Assembly: GCA_000310025.1 (NCBI GenBank)
Contig: FN648552.1
Location: forward strand, 1 to 64,000
DNA from: Ectocarpus siliculosus
Taxonomy: Eukaryota; Sar; Phaeophyceae; Ectocarpales; Ectocarpaceae
DNA length: 64,000 nucleotides
Direction: 5' to 3'
Shown here: one piece after another, positions 1 to 9,000 of the stretch
How positions within the stretch are numbered: position 1 is the first letter of the stretch
Layout of the letters: every line of letters starts with the position of its first letter
Notes under the pieces: model-generated
What the model saw: the letters and a program-made list of their open reading frames with translations, nothing else
What the model was told of the DNA's origin: nothing
The model's database searches: none
Translations under genes and position numbers: made by a program

Positions 1-3000
1 AGACCCTCGTCCTCTCCATGAACAAGTTAGATGGTGAGTTAAACAGACCAAAAAGAGTTTTGTTTTCTTTCGATTTCTGAAAATGCATGAATCCCGCGTG
101 GGTGGGATTCATGCAATGTTGTTTCTAAATGAGTCAAGGGACACCTTCCGGGAATTCCAAGAAACGTAGTACATGTGCCGTACTTGCCGATTTACCTGTA
201 GGCTTGTTATTGCTCAGCCCAAGCACCTTCAGGTCGGTGAGGCCCCCCAGCTCCTTTGGTATCGGGCCTGTCTGAAGCGGCACAGCGGAACACCGAAAGT
301 GACAAAAATCGTCAATTTCCTAGATCAGTCCGGCCCATTTGAAGCATTTGTTCCATCCCGTGAACTAATTTTCGCCCAAGAAACTTCACAACTTGTGGAA
401 GCCTGTCAGGTGCTCGGAAACTGCGCCTATAGAATGAGACAGCACGCAACAAGGGCCTTTGTGACTAGGAAAGTATTATGCCGAGTGAGCGTTTCCCTGA
501 GTGGTCGCGATCTTGTTTCGGAATGCGTGCACGCTTGCTGCTTTCCACTTTTTTTGCATCGAAGTACCAAAACGGTCTCTGGAGGGTTTGACAAATGACG
601 AGATCTGCCTTACCGATTTCAGCTGAATGAATGAGTGGTTGACATGCCTCACCACATTCCATCGTCTAGGAATAAACAAACTCGAAATTCGACGAAAAGC
701 AGAGACCGGTGCCCCCACACGACTAGGAATAAACTGCACATGCTGGAGCTTTGATCAACGGCCGTGTCATTCTTCGTTTTGATACGGGAACAGCCAAGAC
801 TGTCCTCACAGGATTCTCGGTGGGCTTTAAGGCTACAGTCCCGTCGCTGTAGTCGGTGATGCGATCTTGCTTCTGACCTACTTCGCTTTCTGTATCCCGA
901 GGATGCCCACTACCTTACCCTTCGACATCACTCCTAATTTGCTGAATCCATTCACTCCGGTCCGGCTTTGTTTGGCTGCCTGCGTGTATCTCTGTTTGGC
1001 ACTCTCGGTTCGCTTTGCAGCTCTCTGGGACCACACCCAAAATGTTCAAGATGTCCACCACAAGGAGGGAGGTGACATCATGCCAGGTATGCTTACATTA
1101 AGCGATGTGCCCAAAGTGATACCCTTGAGACAATCAATTGTCTGCCTGCGAGTGGACCTAGCGGTAATCGACGTAGGTTGGAAAACCTCAGTGGCGAATG
1201 GGCGTACGTGATGTCTGTTGTCCTCGATGCCAGCAGCAGCTCCATATTGTACTAAATTCTCAGCTTGTCGGAGCTCTATGGGACGTGTACCATGTGAGGA
1301 ATGAATGTTGGAGTTGAAGGGTAGGCTCAGTCTTTTGGGCTAAGGTGGAACCCATGAGGGGCCTGATACATCGCGCCACATCTCGTAGCATACCTGTCAC
1401 ACACCAAGACGTGGGACGTCCGTTGGTGGTACCTACGGCCTTGTGTGTCGATGATGGGACTGCTGCGCGATCCAGCCTGTTAAAGCCTCACTGCTGTCTC
1501 GTTCGGTAACATCTCAACGTGGTCACCCATCGTGCTTCAACCACAAGAAAAAACTGAGTAGGTTACGCGGGGACTGCGAACATTGCCAGAGGTAGCTTAT
1601 TGCTGGAGCCACTACCCTCTGGCCTCGTGATCACTAGTGGCGCGGGCGATGATAATCATCCCATGATGTGCGCGTGCTGTACGTTGCTCGTCAGGTGGAG
1701 CAATGCCCAGCCAGCTGTGCCGGTTGCTTGTCGTCCTCGACCGTTTAAGTGGGGTGAACCTTGCGCTCCTAGGTAACCCATGGGCTGAACCACCAGAGTC
1801 GATCGTGGCCAAAGGTCCGAAGAGTATCAGAGGGTATTTCGAAGACCTGTATGCTGAGCCCTGCTGGATCAAGCGCAGCAGCGTCAAGGTTGTCCTTGTC
1901 GGACAGGAAGGCGCAGGGAAAACCAGGTCAGCGATGTGATGGTCCTGCCGTTACCCACTACTGCACTCTCACCAAATATTGGTTGGTCGGAATCGTTCGA
2001 AACAACCCAGTTGACACAGTGTGGTATCCTATCAAGTTCGATCAACTATACTACAATCAGTTGTCGCTTTTCACCATAGAATCGTTTGTTTTTTTCAAGA
2101 GCGGTAGCCACACATGCCGTTTCACTCCTGAACCTTCTATGCGCGGCTCTGGCTGTAGTTGGTCGTGCACATAGAGAGAGTGAGTGATCGCACCCCCTCT
2201 AGACCGCGACTCTAACAGCTCGATCGCTCCAAAGCCTAAGGCCTGACGAGAGATGGAAGAATGTTCTCAACAAGATCGTCCAAATCTCTCGTTTCGGGAC
2301 TGGTGCTCGCTTAGTTGTGGAATAATTGAGTTTTGAGAGTCGGTCTACGGTGGGAGGGTGCGCGATCACTCGCGCCATCTCGATTTGACATTGGACTGTG
2401 TGCCATGTACAGATTTGCAATATTATACTTTTTGCTCGTTGAGGTTCACTGGGCTCTTCGAGTGAAAATTACGTCATCCGTGAACTATTGAACTTAGGAA
2501 ACGTCGCAACTGGCAGCCGGCGGCCAGCTCTGGGCTCTTTCTGCTACGATCATACTGTTTTTTGTGGCATCTTACATCACACCCCCTGGATGACACTGTG
2601 CTCTTAGTAGCCCACTCCAGAAGGATCCCTTGTAGCAATTGTTACATAGTTGTGCTTTCAGGTCGATCGCCCTGGAGACCGTTCGGGGAGAGGTTTGTCT
2701 ACTTTCAAGCAAGTATTGACCTGTTCAGAGCAGCTTTCGACCGTTTCACCCGAACAGAGCGATTCAAAAACGCACGTCTTTTCTCCGTGGGTTCGCTTGC
2801 TGTTGCCCAGACACACACATCCGCCAGAAGTTTATACCGCTGAGTAATTTAGCCCGCTCAATAAGGCGGGTACCGTATGTGACACAAGATAACACACCCG
2901 CTGAACCGATTTTCAAAGCTCGATTACTCCACGACGAAGAAGATTCATAAACAAGATGATACGTTTTCAAATAGCTCTCGACGAGACGGTTCCAACGCCG

Positions 3001-6000
3001 CCATTTTCGGCGCTGTAGCTCTTCCTGCTGTTGAGAAATCGAGCTTTGAGAATCGGTCAAGGGGGGTATGTTATCTTGCGTCATATACGGTATGACATGC
3101 AAGTAGTAATGTGAGAGATGGGACGCCGTTCTGGCTCTGACAGCTGGTGCTGGTGCAGGTTCTGTCTCTCTAATTGCCCTTCCTTTTGAACACGCCCTGT
3201 TCTCGGTTCTCTACTCTCTTCGCGTCCAATTCCTGCCGCCGTTGCTGCTCCTGTGTATGCATACGTGTGTCCAACTTTCAAATGTTTTATTTTTTGGTAG
3301 AAACCCACACTGCTCCGTCTGGGTTCTATGCCTGTCTAGGTGCTTTTGTGAAATGCCATTCCTCATGTATGTTAGCTTCCTCACCATTTCTGGGTCTGCC
3401 AATTGTCTGTGTTAATGACCCCGGCCGGTGCGCCCCCAACACCCCATTCCATTTGGCACTGGTGAAAGAAGAACATTGGCATCCCCGAGGTTTGGTCGGT
3501 GGAATTCCTGCAAGCCGTCGACGCACCTGGCGTGCCACAACGTACACGACACATAATGGTTGATGTTTGGTCGTCTTCGTTCGCAGTGTCAACGTTGGGA
3601 CGTGCGCCGCCGCCAGCATGGAATAGTTTAGAAGAAGAGATGATGGAGCGTGTCTCCTCAGAGCAATCGCTAGAAAAGCCTTTGGTGACCCAGAACATCA
3701 TGGACAAGTTCATCATGACATTGTCACACACATGCACCACCCAGCCACTTATTTACACCAAACCATCAAACGGCTTCGGATTCAAACCAATATCATCCAG
3801 GGTTCAACCATCTTTACTATTCGCTTCAAGACTAGAGTTATTTAAAACTCGATTCATGGACCGGCGGGATTTTTTTGGGCCTTTCGCTGCTTTGTACATT
3901 TTTGGTGAAAAACTCGAGAATAGATCTTCACAGGATAAAAACACAGGACTGTTAGCCTGCGCCAATACATCCTCGGACAGCTGGTGTTCGGCAGGTGGGC
4001 TGCCGTTGTGGTGCAGCCAAATTTGATCAACCGGAAACAAGCAGCAAGCGAAATTAGAGTGCCTTTTTTCAAGGTGACACGAATATGCACACCCTTACGT
4101 AGTGAACGAATAGCGGACAAGGCGCGTTCGTCTCTGCCAAGAGCGCCCCCAACCCGCGCTAGCTGATACTCTGTATGTTGGCACTCGGGCACGTTGATGA
4201 TAACAAACCGTTGGTCCTTCTTCTCTTTTTATTGTGCCAAAGAGAAAACGAGAGAGGGCTTACAAAAGACAGGCAGACAGGCAGATGCACACACACCCTG
4301 TGCATCAACGGCAACAACAACCTCCAGCCTCCCCGCCATGCCGACTAGGAAGGGCCGCCCTCCCCCCCACAAAAATAACGGGGCAGCCCATAAGCTACGC
4401 GGCGAGCCTTGTGGAACTGTGTCTGTTCGTTAGTTCGTCTGTGCTTGCGTGCGATGGCGGCACCAGAGAAAAAGCGAGAAAGAAAAAGGAGCAAGACGAG
4501 AGAGGAGGGCAGAGGGGAAAAGAGAGGGTGCAGCAGCATGCAGCAACCTCACGTACGCGTTGATACGCATGCAGCACAACAAAAAATCGTCCCGGCAGTG
4601 CCCGAAAGCTTGGTTGGGGGCTGGCGGTGGTGGCGGCGTTGTTATGACTGTGTGCTGTGTCTTTGCTGTCGTGACGGCGGTGATGTTTGCTGCAAAAGCG
4701 AGGAGAGAGGAGAGGGAGATAGAGAGAGTAGTCTGTTCGTCTCGGAACACAAATATATACTTGGGAGCTCTGGAGCCCCAAACATATTTTGCTCACGATT
4801 CATGCATTTTTGCCCAAAAGTCCCCTCCGATATAAAACTCGATTCATCCACTTTTCGGGCTCTTCCACTGGTTTCATGCGTTGGTTCGAGTTTTAAATAT
4901 CTCTACTACCTGTCCGTATGGCTCAACCATCGGCCTACGCTGGTCATGTTGAAAATGCTGCTGCGCCGCAATTGTACGGACTTACCATCGGCCTACGCTG
5001 GTCATGTTGAAAATGCTGCTGCGCCGCAATTGTACGGACTTACCATAGAGGTGGTCATCAATGGCACTCATTTTCCAACCACATGGTTTGTACTACTCTA
5101 CTTTTGACTCCAGTTTACTCCTCCAACCAAACCTGCTCGACACCGTGCTCTAGCCCTACTTTTAATTCGTATTTGTGTTGTCCACGCTGTTTTCCTTTCT
5201 CTTGCATCGCCCCCCGTGTTCAAGCGCATCCGTTTACCCACTCCGAATGGGATTCTTGTATATCTTCCATTTTTTCCGCCTAAATGATGGTGTTGGATGT
5301 CACGGTGTAAACGAATGGTTGAAACGGAACGAGATCGACCCTGTACTCTGTTTGCTCCTCCCGCGCATCAGCATGGTCTCGGGTGTAGGCTGCCGCAAAC
5401 CAACCGCGGCGAGTTCAACCTTGTTACGCCCAAACGACCCTGTTCCTACATCTCTCCGGCGTTCGTTTTGCGTATTTGATGGAAACTCGCCTCTTATTTG
5501 TGGCAGCTTGCGCCAAAGCATGAAGGCCAACAAAGCAACTCCCACGGGCGAGTGGAAGGAGGAGAGCACGGTGTTTGCGGACGTGGAACCCATGGAGCTA
5601 GAAGGCTCATCCGTTCGGGTGTACGACTGCGCTGGACAGGTGACAAGTATTGTTCATACCGAAGCATATATGTTTGGTGCTTGACGGAGGTGTTGCGTGA
5701 GACCGTTCCAGGAGAATTCGCTGTCCGTCTTATATGCGAGTGACCACGACTAGGTGGAGGAACTGTTGCCAACAACAGCGAAATCCTCCCCTCTATATCT
5801 CGAAATGCCTTTCGGGTTCTTCTGTGCCCATTGAGATTTGTCTTTCGCGACACCGAACAAGCTCAGGTACCTGGTATATCATACGTCATACGCTACAGGA
5901 ATTGGTTCACCACAGGCTTGCGAGATGTATCACCCGGGTGGGGGACAGCACGGGTGTAAAGTGCTTGGGGGTCGCGGGGCTGTAATGAATTTTGTGCTCA

Positions 6001-9000
6001 TCGAGGCACGTGCGCCGAAATTGTCCAAGGCGTTTGGCCTCAGTCTCAGGGAACGGAGAACCGCCGACGCCATTTGGGTGCGTTTTTCTTTTCCGCAGTT
6101 TTTCAACACGTTGTTTACGGAGTGCAAAGCTTGAAAATGCCACTTGAGTATGCAGGAATCGCAACGTGCTTCGTAATTGGATCACGCTGTGAATGTACTT
6201 GCTTTAACGCGCCACATGACATCTTAATCTGTCCTCCCTGCCCTACAGCACTGTGGTTTTGCCCACAATGAAGTATTCCCCCTCGCTCTACAGTAGCGTG
6301 GTTTTATATATTGTGCATTCTGGCTGCTAGATCCGGAAGTGCTCCGATCTCGGAGAGCCTCGAACAGTTCGATGAGGTACTGTGTTTAAGTTGGGGAGAG
6401 GTACACTCCGCAACGACGAGAGGCCGCATGGTCGATGCTGCGTGATGTTAAGCTCACTTTGCTCTCCCTCGACAGGTTGCCTACACCGGGCTGCTGCAGA
6501 TGTTCTTGACGCCACGGTCGGTGTGCGTGCTTGTGTGCAACGCGGGGGAGTTCGGACAGCAGCTAGGTAGCGACAACGTTGACCAGGTTGAGGAAGACTG
6601 CCGCAAGCTGCAAGCATTGCGCGTATGCGATTGGCTGCGGTCGATATCTCGTCGCGTTCCCGGCAACGACGTCATTCTCGTCGCTACCAAGTGTGACTTG
6701 GTGAGCGGGAACGCTGAGGAAACTGGCCGACGACTGGAGCATGCCTGTCGGATGTGGCTTTCGACCTGGGTTCGCAATGGTATGGACCCCGTCCGGCTGG
6801 AGCCCCACGTTTCCCTCACGAGTTGCTTCCCGATAGGAGATGGTGAGCATGGCGAGAGCAACACTGGGAGTGATGCGTCGAAGCAGGGTTGGGCGTGCGA
6901 CTGGCGACACGTGGAAGGCGATAAATCCTCGCCCAGTTTGCTTTACCGGCTCGTCAACAAGCCTGACGAAGGTGGGCTCCGAGGCGTCCAGATGGTGCTT
7001 CCTCGCAGCTGGGATATCGCCCTCACTGTTCTGGAAGCTCTCGAGCATGGACGGTGAGCTTGATCATGGCTTTACGGTTGGGCTTTACAACGAGTTTGGA
7101 TACCTTCGTATGTCGAAGCTGGGGCGGATGTGGACACTTTCCTCACCTATCGTTTTGGGTGGGGCTGAATCTCCAGTACGTTAAACACCCACGCTGACCT
7201 CTATTCAGTACGTCCTCTTCGGCGTTGGTCATGGTGACGAAACGTAGCCCCGTGCCCCATTTCCCGTCTATTTCACGTTTTTCGATTCTTGGGCCTACAT
7301 GCCCATATTTTTTTCGCGGATTGCCTTCTTTAGAAATCTCGATAGTTTATGTTTCACCCTACTTGCACTAGTATCCCGTACGATGCAGAGGTATGGATGC
7401 AGTTCTCGAACACTGGCGTACCACGAGCTCCGACGAGATGCACAATCCGGAGATATGAAGTCGTTTGAACCTATTATTTGTGAATGCTGCTTTCCCAGAG
7501 ATCCGGTGGAGATGGTACTGCTCAAGTCCCCCGACAGCGAGAGACGTCCAACGGAAACAGGAGTAGGCAAGACAAACGTGTACCAGGCGATCAAGGTTGA
7601 GGAACTCGGCACCAACTGGCGGGAAACAGTTGATGAGCTTGGGAAGAGAGGGATCGTGGTCACAAACGCCGAGAATGCTTTGGAAGGAGCTCTATCTATC
7701 AGGTAAATGGATCAAATCGACGTTTCGATATGGTGACCTCCTTTTTCACCACACTCTAGCGCCTACGATGGCCAAAATTAGGTACGGCATCGCTGTAGTT
7801 CGGTGTACATGATCGCATAGCACGCTTATATATCTCAGTCTCGAGTATTTGTGTTGGTCCTATCAGGAAAGAAAAGACTGTCGGGAAAGAGATCGCAACG
7901 ATCCTTCCCTTCAAGAGTCCGCATGCAATTTGGACTTCGTATTCCTCCTGGGCGGATTTTCCAACTCGAACCTTTGGCTTCACATTGTTGTGCACGCAGG
8001 GAGTTCGACGGATCCCTCGTTCGCCACGAGAAATTCGTTTTTCTGGACGTCGTTTGGCTGGCGAGAATCCTCAAGCCCTTGCTCAATCACAAGGATCAAC
8101 GGACCTTTGACGGCCGTGTGAATCTTGGGGACACGGGTGACGCACGTATCACACTCGACGATTCATCAGACATCGCTTCGTGGGGCAGGCTCAAGAACGA
8201 GGGCGTGCTTGAACCAAGATTAGCGTATGCGATGTGGCCGGATGGTCTATCCGAGTATGTCCTTCCCACTCTTGCATCCTTGGGTCTCACTTTCCCACTC
8301 GAAGGCGATCCTGATAACGGCCTGGTCGTTCTGCTTAGGCTAGAGCCAAACCGCCCCGCGAGTGTGGGCGAAGCAATAGACACATTCTGCTCGAAGTACA
8401 CGCCGGCATTCAGCGCCAGTTGGGAGATTTTCCTCGGTGTACCGCCTGGTGCGATTGAAAAGGTGCTGACACGGTGCTGCGGTCTTGGTGACGTGCAAAC
8501 TTTCTGGCGATATGGGGTGCTGGTGCATGGTGGCCTCGGCGACCTAGATGGGCGCGGGATATTCGCTGTGGTTACGGAGTACTCATCCACGAACAATGAG
8601 CTTACTGCTCAGATTTTCGGCGATATCAGCACTTCAGCTCCGTGGGTGGCGTTGTCATACGTCACGTCTGCCGTGAGCTTGATGCTGATGGATTTTCCAG
8701 GACTACGCTGGAACGGCTCTCTGAAGTGTCCTCAGCATGGCTACGAGATGCCCTTCGCCACCAAGGTAAGCCTTGTCACACACTTGTGTAGTCTAGGGGC
8801 CCATAGCTGCCCCCAGCAAGGGGTACTCTTGCGACCGTTTGGACGCGCGGTGTACGAAATTTTCCATCTCATGTCGGACCTGGCGGTAATGATTTGTGCA
8901 GATCGCGTGTGTGGCACGCTATACGAAACACTCGATCTTGTGTCGGAGTTGGCGGTACGCGTTTCGTGCAATGTGCACTCGCATCAGGCGGGCGCTGTTT

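Follow-up and report, generated by a model that had tools for sequence, protein, structure and literature searches.

Shuffling of LRR-ROCO exons in brown algae was reportedly described by Zambounis in 2012. According to the main text of a later study (Teng 2024, PMC11378527), brown-algal ROCO genes contain 72-nt exons, nucleotides 3-71 of which encode a 23-residue leucine-rich repeat (LRR), next to Roc; the format is denoted phase 2 there and, in the usual count, corresponds to an intron after the first codon base. LRR exon shuffling and alternative splicing are discussed in the same text, which presents LRR-only sequences as a possible reservoir and notes that somatic recombination of brown-algal immune receptors has been proposed and that, as of 2024, no recombinant ROCO locus or site-specific recombinase had been reported. 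Antisense or inverted orientation, palindromes and transposition are not mentioned in the main text of PMC11378527, and the body text of PMC12477816 mentions neither ROCO nor LRR. The closest layout is that of the lamprey VLR locus, where LRR cassettes, some forward and some reverse, adjoin an LRR receptor gene and act as donor templates that are copied, without rearrangement, into the incomplete gene (relevant sections of PMC3308329). Introners and MITEs are short intronic units with inverted ends (relevant sections of PMC9860276).

Here, the window denotes the whole 64-kb stretch of Ectocarpus siliculosus DNA that was analysed, position 1 of which is base 1 of contig C109. The exon located antisense to a ROCO gene at 196-267 of this window is one of hundreds of small, randomly oriented cassettes beside candidate immune-receptor genes. 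These cassettes share with the published LRR-ROCO shuffling the 72-nt exons, the 23-residue LRR and the position next to Roc, whereas the random orientation, a defined palindromic junction and the enrichment of homology ends at the core of this junction set them apart. As in the lamprey locus, LRR cassettes in either direction, a feature of VLR-type donor banks, lie beside an LRR receptor gene; in contrast to that locus, as far as the sections cited describe it, whole cassettes are found at different places, with their ends at the junction, and intact sense exons are present in the ROCO loci. Terminal inverted repeats, a feature of MITEs and introners, are also present (13-nt half-sites) but, in contrast to those elements as described in the sections cited, the unit carries an exon and is found mostly in LRR arrays, and a target-duplication test gave p 0.10. 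Bacterial shufflons and invertase systems invert cassettes at short symmetric sites, and V(D)J signal joints contain signals joined head to head; compared with these, the half-sites described here are diverse and the cores vary. Neither the palindromic junction nor the random orientation was found in the literature that we searched; the 2012 work of Zambounis, which is outside that search, may describe part of this.

An antisense LRR exon in a ROCO intron

The features of the locus are as follows (splice sites of the window exons are predicted from the sequence).

1-33, plus strand: end of a sense LRR exon (TLVLSMNKLD + g), donor GTGAGT at 34
1-97, plus strand: end of a sense LRR cassette (exon 1-33 and the donor at 34)
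34-1694, plus strand: predicted sense intron holding the antisense cassette (GTGAGT at 34, AG at 1693-1694, same phase)
82-110, unstranded: palindromic junction between the sense cassette 1-97 and the antisense cassette, from half-site comparison
98-110, plus strand: half-site GTGGGTGGGATTC, donor-side end of the antisense cassette, 13.3 bits
98-352, minus strand: antisense LRR cassette carrying the exon, from a four-locus alignment (C109, C234, C9, C4)
196-267, minus strand: intact LRR exon, antisense to the ROCO gene, 72 nt, phase 1, one LRR PIPKELGGLTDLKVLGLSNNKPT
353-1333, plus strand: ROCO-side flank, common to C234 (to 1047, 91%) and C16 (347-1333, 80%)
1695-1926, plus strand: ROCO exon, LRR cap and P-loop (GQEGAGKT)
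5507-5639, plus strand: ROCO exon with DCAGQ, predicted splice sites
6476-7057, plus strand: ROCO exon with TKCD; its 3' limit is the end of the open frame, not a donor

The spliced model of the last three exons matched Pfam Roc at 1.3e-12, among solved structures the leucine-rich-repeat protein 4wnr is closest in sequence (3.6e-6), and 72-nt phase-1 single-LRR exons are located upstream of Roc, as is characteristic of brown-algal LRR-ROCO genes. Unspliced pieces of the window, including those after Roc, had no Pfam match, and the single COR-A match in the genome lies outside this locus. The partial exon 1-33 is the only sense LRR exon within the window. The ROCO intron 1927-5506 contains two inverted-repeat pairs, 2871-3092 (29 nt, 90%) and 2173-2380 (27 nt, 78%), which look like small inverted-repeat elements, and a perfect tandem duplication of a 58-nt unit at 4926-5041.

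The antisense exon (267-196) contains no stop, is flanked by an AG acceptor at 269-268 and a GT donor at 195-194, and yields the LRR given above by translation of its nucleotides 3-71. An nhmmer model of 140 exons from 17 other loci, from which the window exon was excluded, detected it on the minus strand with 44.3 bits (E 7.9e-13 in 64 kb; 46.5 bits with the window exon in the model), so the match is not due to chance. The partial exon 1-33 of the sense gene ranks second in the window (E 0.049), and no further minus-strand LRR exon was found in the 64 kb at E < 0.1. These results confirm the sequence-only reading of a 72-nt, phase-1/phase-1 LRR exon with AG/GT splice sites that lies antisense inside an intron of a gene with a Roc match; calling the repeat "perfect" was too strong, given that the consensus NxL reads NKP (one leucine replaced by proline). 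By itself, the exon falls below the Pfam LRR cut-off.

A DNA search with window 1-700 returned 31 matches, including the window itself. Matches of the segments 1-99 and 95-695 lie at different places, which puts a border at 95-100; in particular, window 1-99 is 98% identical to C15:2425773-2425870, whose neighbour differs. The family of the antisense cassette is sense to ROCO at C9 (L003 5839+) and C4 (L004 1623+) and antisense at C109 and C234. The four copies are alignable from GTGG[GA]TGGGAT onward and, to the left of this motif, continue into four different sequences. The left border of the window cassette is thus marked by the junction half-site at 98; the opposing left half-site of the junction 82-110 is about 6 nt shorter than in the C15 copy, and this junction was not called by our junction scanner (threshold 14). 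Near position 350, C109 and C234 pass into the flank that is common to C16 from window 347, where C16 has other sequence in place of the cassette, and the C9 and C4 cassettes continue for about 20 nt to a half-site. The right border of the window cassette (about 347-353) is therefore imprecise, ending about 20 nt short of that half-site, with TTTG in common with the C16 flank. Both borders of the window's own cassette are imperfect, which counts against the explanation that we favour below.

C109 and C234 are 91% identical from window 95 to 1047, and 3 amino-acid and 3 silent changes separate their antisense exons, one consensus leucine being absent from each. Because the antisense state is common to both, it is older than their duplication, and the cassette would have become joined to the ROCO flank, imprecisely at its right end, before the two diverged. 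The window exon is thus an old antisense passenger, in place since before this divergence. In C234, two further intact exons follow in the same orientation; the paralogue there (L001, C234:41000-46658) is without the stretch equal to window 1047-6598, including the P-loop exon, so its ROCO gene may be broken. Contig C234 ends inside an array, as C109 starts in one. No sign of the suggested re-inversion was seen at the window locus, and reuse of the antisense cassette by re-inversion is hypothetical. A misassembly at 34-300 is unlikely because C234 has the cassette with the same border half-site and because this form of border recurs in 225 junctions, many of them within contigs of 5-8 Mb.

Cassette arrays and the palindromic junction

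We surveyed 17 stretches covering the 30 other matches of window 1-700, 20 stretches upstream of Roc-exon relatives and five holding the palindrome described below; with the first 2 kb of the window, these amount to 36 blocks and 210 kb. Upstream sequence was at least partly covered for 22 of 27 Roc-exon places, the remaining ones being C9:5172314, three on C43 and C2:1348062. In the 36 blocks, 347 exon-like units were identified with an nhmmer model built from 141 intact exons; 275 of these units are intact (72 nt, AG acceptor, GT or GC donor, no stop). Both strands carry exons in 25 of the 36 blocks. Neighbours less than 600 nt apart point in the same direction in 142 of 291 pairs (mean 154 if strands are shuffled within loci), with nearly even counts of the four arrangements (++72, --70, +-74, -+75). 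Thus, neighbour orientation is random, like a coin toss, with no clustering by direction. At one locus (L003, C9:4018500-4026500), sense and antisense exons nearly alternate across 28 units. The ROCO loci in which all exons are sense (C2:741k, C2:800k, C2:684k, both on C33, C20 and C9:5294k) contain 0 or 1 junctions.

The intron ends that flank the exons fall into families, and among the matches listed their likeness tends to end at a short palindrome. This junction consists of two facing half-sites of 13 nt (consensus GTNGGCGGGAYYC) around a short core. With a half-site matrix for which 20 typed seeds were the starting point and the first loci served for refinement (17 stretches were used in training), 225 junctions with cores of 0-6 nt were found in the 210 kb, compared to 4, 4 and 6 in local shuffles; window 8-64 kb has 0 such junctions, and 2 when spacers of up to 8 nt are allowed. 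In 25 held-out stretches (144 kb), five of which (L038-L042) had been chosen for holding the palindrome, a related pattern, there are 94 junctions versus 3, 2 and 1 in shuffles. With strands merged, the cores are GC (125), TA (20), GTA (20), GCA (17), AC (7), GCC (7), GA (7) and rarer others, some of which (GCTA, TACA) read as two ends summed. For cores within 200 nt, the median distance is 91 nt to the acceptor that follows and 66.5 nt to the donor that precedes. A junction is present on both sides of 128 of the 275 intact exons, the median unit being 238 nt, and neighbour intervals shorter than 600 nt contain a junction over threshold in 195 of 291 cases and none in 96. Equal cores on both sides of a cassette, as a test for target duplication, were found in 61 of 164 cases against 55.6 expected (p 0.10, not significant).

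The genome has 76 occurrences of the palindrome in its strict form, compared to 7 of the reversed pattern. Among the 50 listed of these 76, 41 fall in surveyed stretches (10 of them in stretches chosen via the palindrome), C16:2109106 lies in a further array, C20:1521699 beside exons, and C134:88496, C80:31505, C5:1694740 and two on C9 near arrays; C3:761742 and C13:1645824 have no known link to an array. Cassettes were also encountered at four outlying places, on C26, C20, C11 and C16, which were excluded from the unit, orientation, junction, homology and intactness counts. At C26:5699.4k (L046, C26:5697500-5701500, 1931-2144), a lone intact cassette is the only exon-like unit in 4 kb; it has a half-site and a GC core at one end and has lost the other end, and TACTAC flanks it on both sides, a 6-nt match that may be due to chance. 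The other three are two damaged exons with one junction (C20:1521.7k), one exon adjoining N (C11:4819.6k) and a further mixed array (C16:2109k). These places rule out a strict confinement of cassettes to arrays; cassettes can leave arrays and have done so at least once.

Several other sequences were considered along with the cassettes. Exonless units of about 60 nt with junction-like ends (S1 and S2; L002 676-737 and relatives) are present in the arrays; S1 was considered as a genome-wide MITE, which is ruled out by its 36 matches, all inside LRR arrays or at most about 700 nt away from one. A search with a 2.3-kb array gave 325 matches and, among the matches listed, nearly all are in the same arrays, in or near LRR exons. 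The possibility that NB-ARC-TPR genes share the junction was rejected for three loci of this genome, in which there are 0 junctions and nine TPR-like motif matches, all on one strand. One NB-ARC-TPR locus (L045, C27:3070900-3077900) contains six TPR motif matches about 740 nt apart, in tandem copies more than 90% identical and in one direction. At C476:356535-356699, an LRR_8 match falls within a listed open frame of 18,877 residues, a length that a long run of N could cause.

Intactness by orientation and ends of homology

The two orientations differ in their state of preservation. In the 23 ROCO loci, 129 of 145 sense exons are intact, compared to 45 of 76 antisense exons (p 6.6e-7; exons at edges or with N are left out of the sense and antisense counts). 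Restricting the count to the 11 loci with at least 4 junctions, all of which have both orientations, gives 97 of 110 and 42 of 70, respectively; in L003, 15 of 16 sense and 5 of 12 antisense exons are intact. Even among intact exons, framework residues deviate in 10 of 45 antisense versus 8 of 129 sense exons (p 0.008). The orphan arrays (no Roc exon in the fetched stretch) have 101 of 123 exons intact, with 53 of the 123 on the plus strand. For best-match exons, dN/dS is 0.76-1.1 in every class, with no orientation contrast, so the contrast in selection rests on intactness and framework residues.

The ends of similar stretches tend to lie at the palindrome core, where rearrangement ends are more common than elsewhere. 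Among stretches with at least 95% identity, 141 of 291 ends (0.48) are within 6 nt of a core, versus 0.10 for random places in the same stretches; the corresponding values are 306/714 versus 0.11 at 90-95% identity, 246/851 versus 0.09 at 85-90%, and 296/1724 (0.17) versus 0.03 at 75-85%. That half of the homology ends lie away from cores, and that the excess drops with identity, counts against the favoured explanation. Some near-identical copies have both ends at junction cores, such as a stretch of 252 nt shared by C11 and C15 with 100% identity, one of 273 nt shared by C15 and C4:2032.5k (99.3%), and two copies in opposite directions within C4:2032.5k (272 nt, 98.9%). Among the 204 stretches with a length of at least 120 nt and an identity of 93% or more, cores are found at both ends in 46, at a single end in 106 and at neither end in 52. 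Near-identical (at least 95%) cassette pairs in the ROCO loci (n=31) include 15 sense/sense, 12 sense/antisense and 4 antisense/antisense pairs. We also detected 36 cases in which collinear flanks enclose what looks like a gained or lost segment, and in 9 of these cases both borders are at cores; because cassette types recur, some of the 36 are chance and they are hints only.

How the cassettes may move

The survey demonstrates that the junctions exist, that orientation is random and that ends of homology are in excess at the cores. The process that best accommodates these findings, and that we consider probable, is that cassettes of about 240 nt are cut at or near the core and rejoined in either orientation. 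The mobile unit would consist of an acceptor-side intron end, one 72-nt LRR exon and a donor-side intron end, bounded by short inverted half-sites, and joining of such units end to end would create the palindrome with a core of mostly 2-3 nt. Following a cut in the DNA at or near the core, whole cassettes would be rejoined either way round, mostly into the junctions of other arrays; random orientation would follow from the equal inverted ends and, given that like ends would restore the same kind of palindrome in either direction, the process could sustain itself. Sense copies would provide the LRR repeats of the ROCO protein and be kept by selection, and antisense copies would reside in introns, be spliced out and decay unless moved again. 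The earlier proposal that the window exon is left over from cassette shuffling stands, with the shuffling blind to orientation; the exon itself is not exceptional, given the hundreds of such cassettes.

The cutting step could be due to the fragility of palindromes, with no dedicated enzyme: extrusion or a cut by a general nuclease at the centre, followed by random end joining, would give new palindromes and random orientation and would leave the anatomy of the cassette unchanged. The small variants of the core fit such breakage with end joining, as cores vary by small steps and some (GCTA, TACA) equal two ends summed, and the right border in the window has only the TTTG microhomology. However, end joining is usually less exact than a single dinucleotide core, GC, in 125 of 225 junctions, and the half-site has a 13-nt consensus, so that we regard this account as somewhat unlikely.

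A further reading, in which each cassette is a small non-autonomous DNA transposon (MITE- or introner-like) that has terminal inverted repeats and carries an exon, is rather unlikely. The inverted 13-nt ends, the whole-unit copies on different contigs and in both orientations, and the lone intact cassette at C26:5699.4k all fit a transposon, but the 36 spacer matches and the listed array matches (of 325) are in or near LRR arrays, the test for target duplication was not significant, and the TACTAC beside the lone cassette, one end of which is lost, is of a kind often found by chance. These objections would be answered by an element whose targets are mostly its own junctions.

We consider it improbable that the arrays are a donor bank for somatic or germline gene conversion, with cassettes of both directions serving as templates for the sense array, as in the lamprey VLR. 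LRR cassettes in both directions near an LRR receptor gene, the orphan arrays with 101 of 123 exons intact and the 12 of 31 close pairs that cross orientation are consistent with such a bank; against it, conversion ends should scatter by homology, whereas here they are enriched at cores, and antisense exons near ROCO genes are less often intact than sense ones, which is unexpected in a maintained bank. That exon 196-267 is one exon of an independent minus-strand LRR gene extending leftward beyond the window, or results from misassembly at the contig end, is very improbable: the window does begin at base 1 of its contig and C234 has two more intact exons in the same orientation, but C234 carries the same cassette, exons occur on both strands in most blocks, and the window contains no other minus-strand LRR exon at E < 0.1.

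Within the reading of cassettes that are cut at the core and rejoined, the common core and the clustering in arrays fit a recombinase or transposase acting on the junctions. A bolder version, which we put forward as speculation and think unlikely, is that a putative dedicated recombinase or domesticated transposase binds GTNGGCGGGAYYC, cuts the GC/TA core and, acting in the germline and perhaps also in somatic cells, shuffles and inverts single-LRR cassettes between ROCO genes and orphan arrays, amounting to programmed receptor diversification. The proposed somatic recombination of these receptors becomes testable with a junction whose consensus and core are defined. Such a junction also offers a possible reason why exon shuffling in these genes would be blind to direction: cassettes with equal ends give the same palindrome either way.
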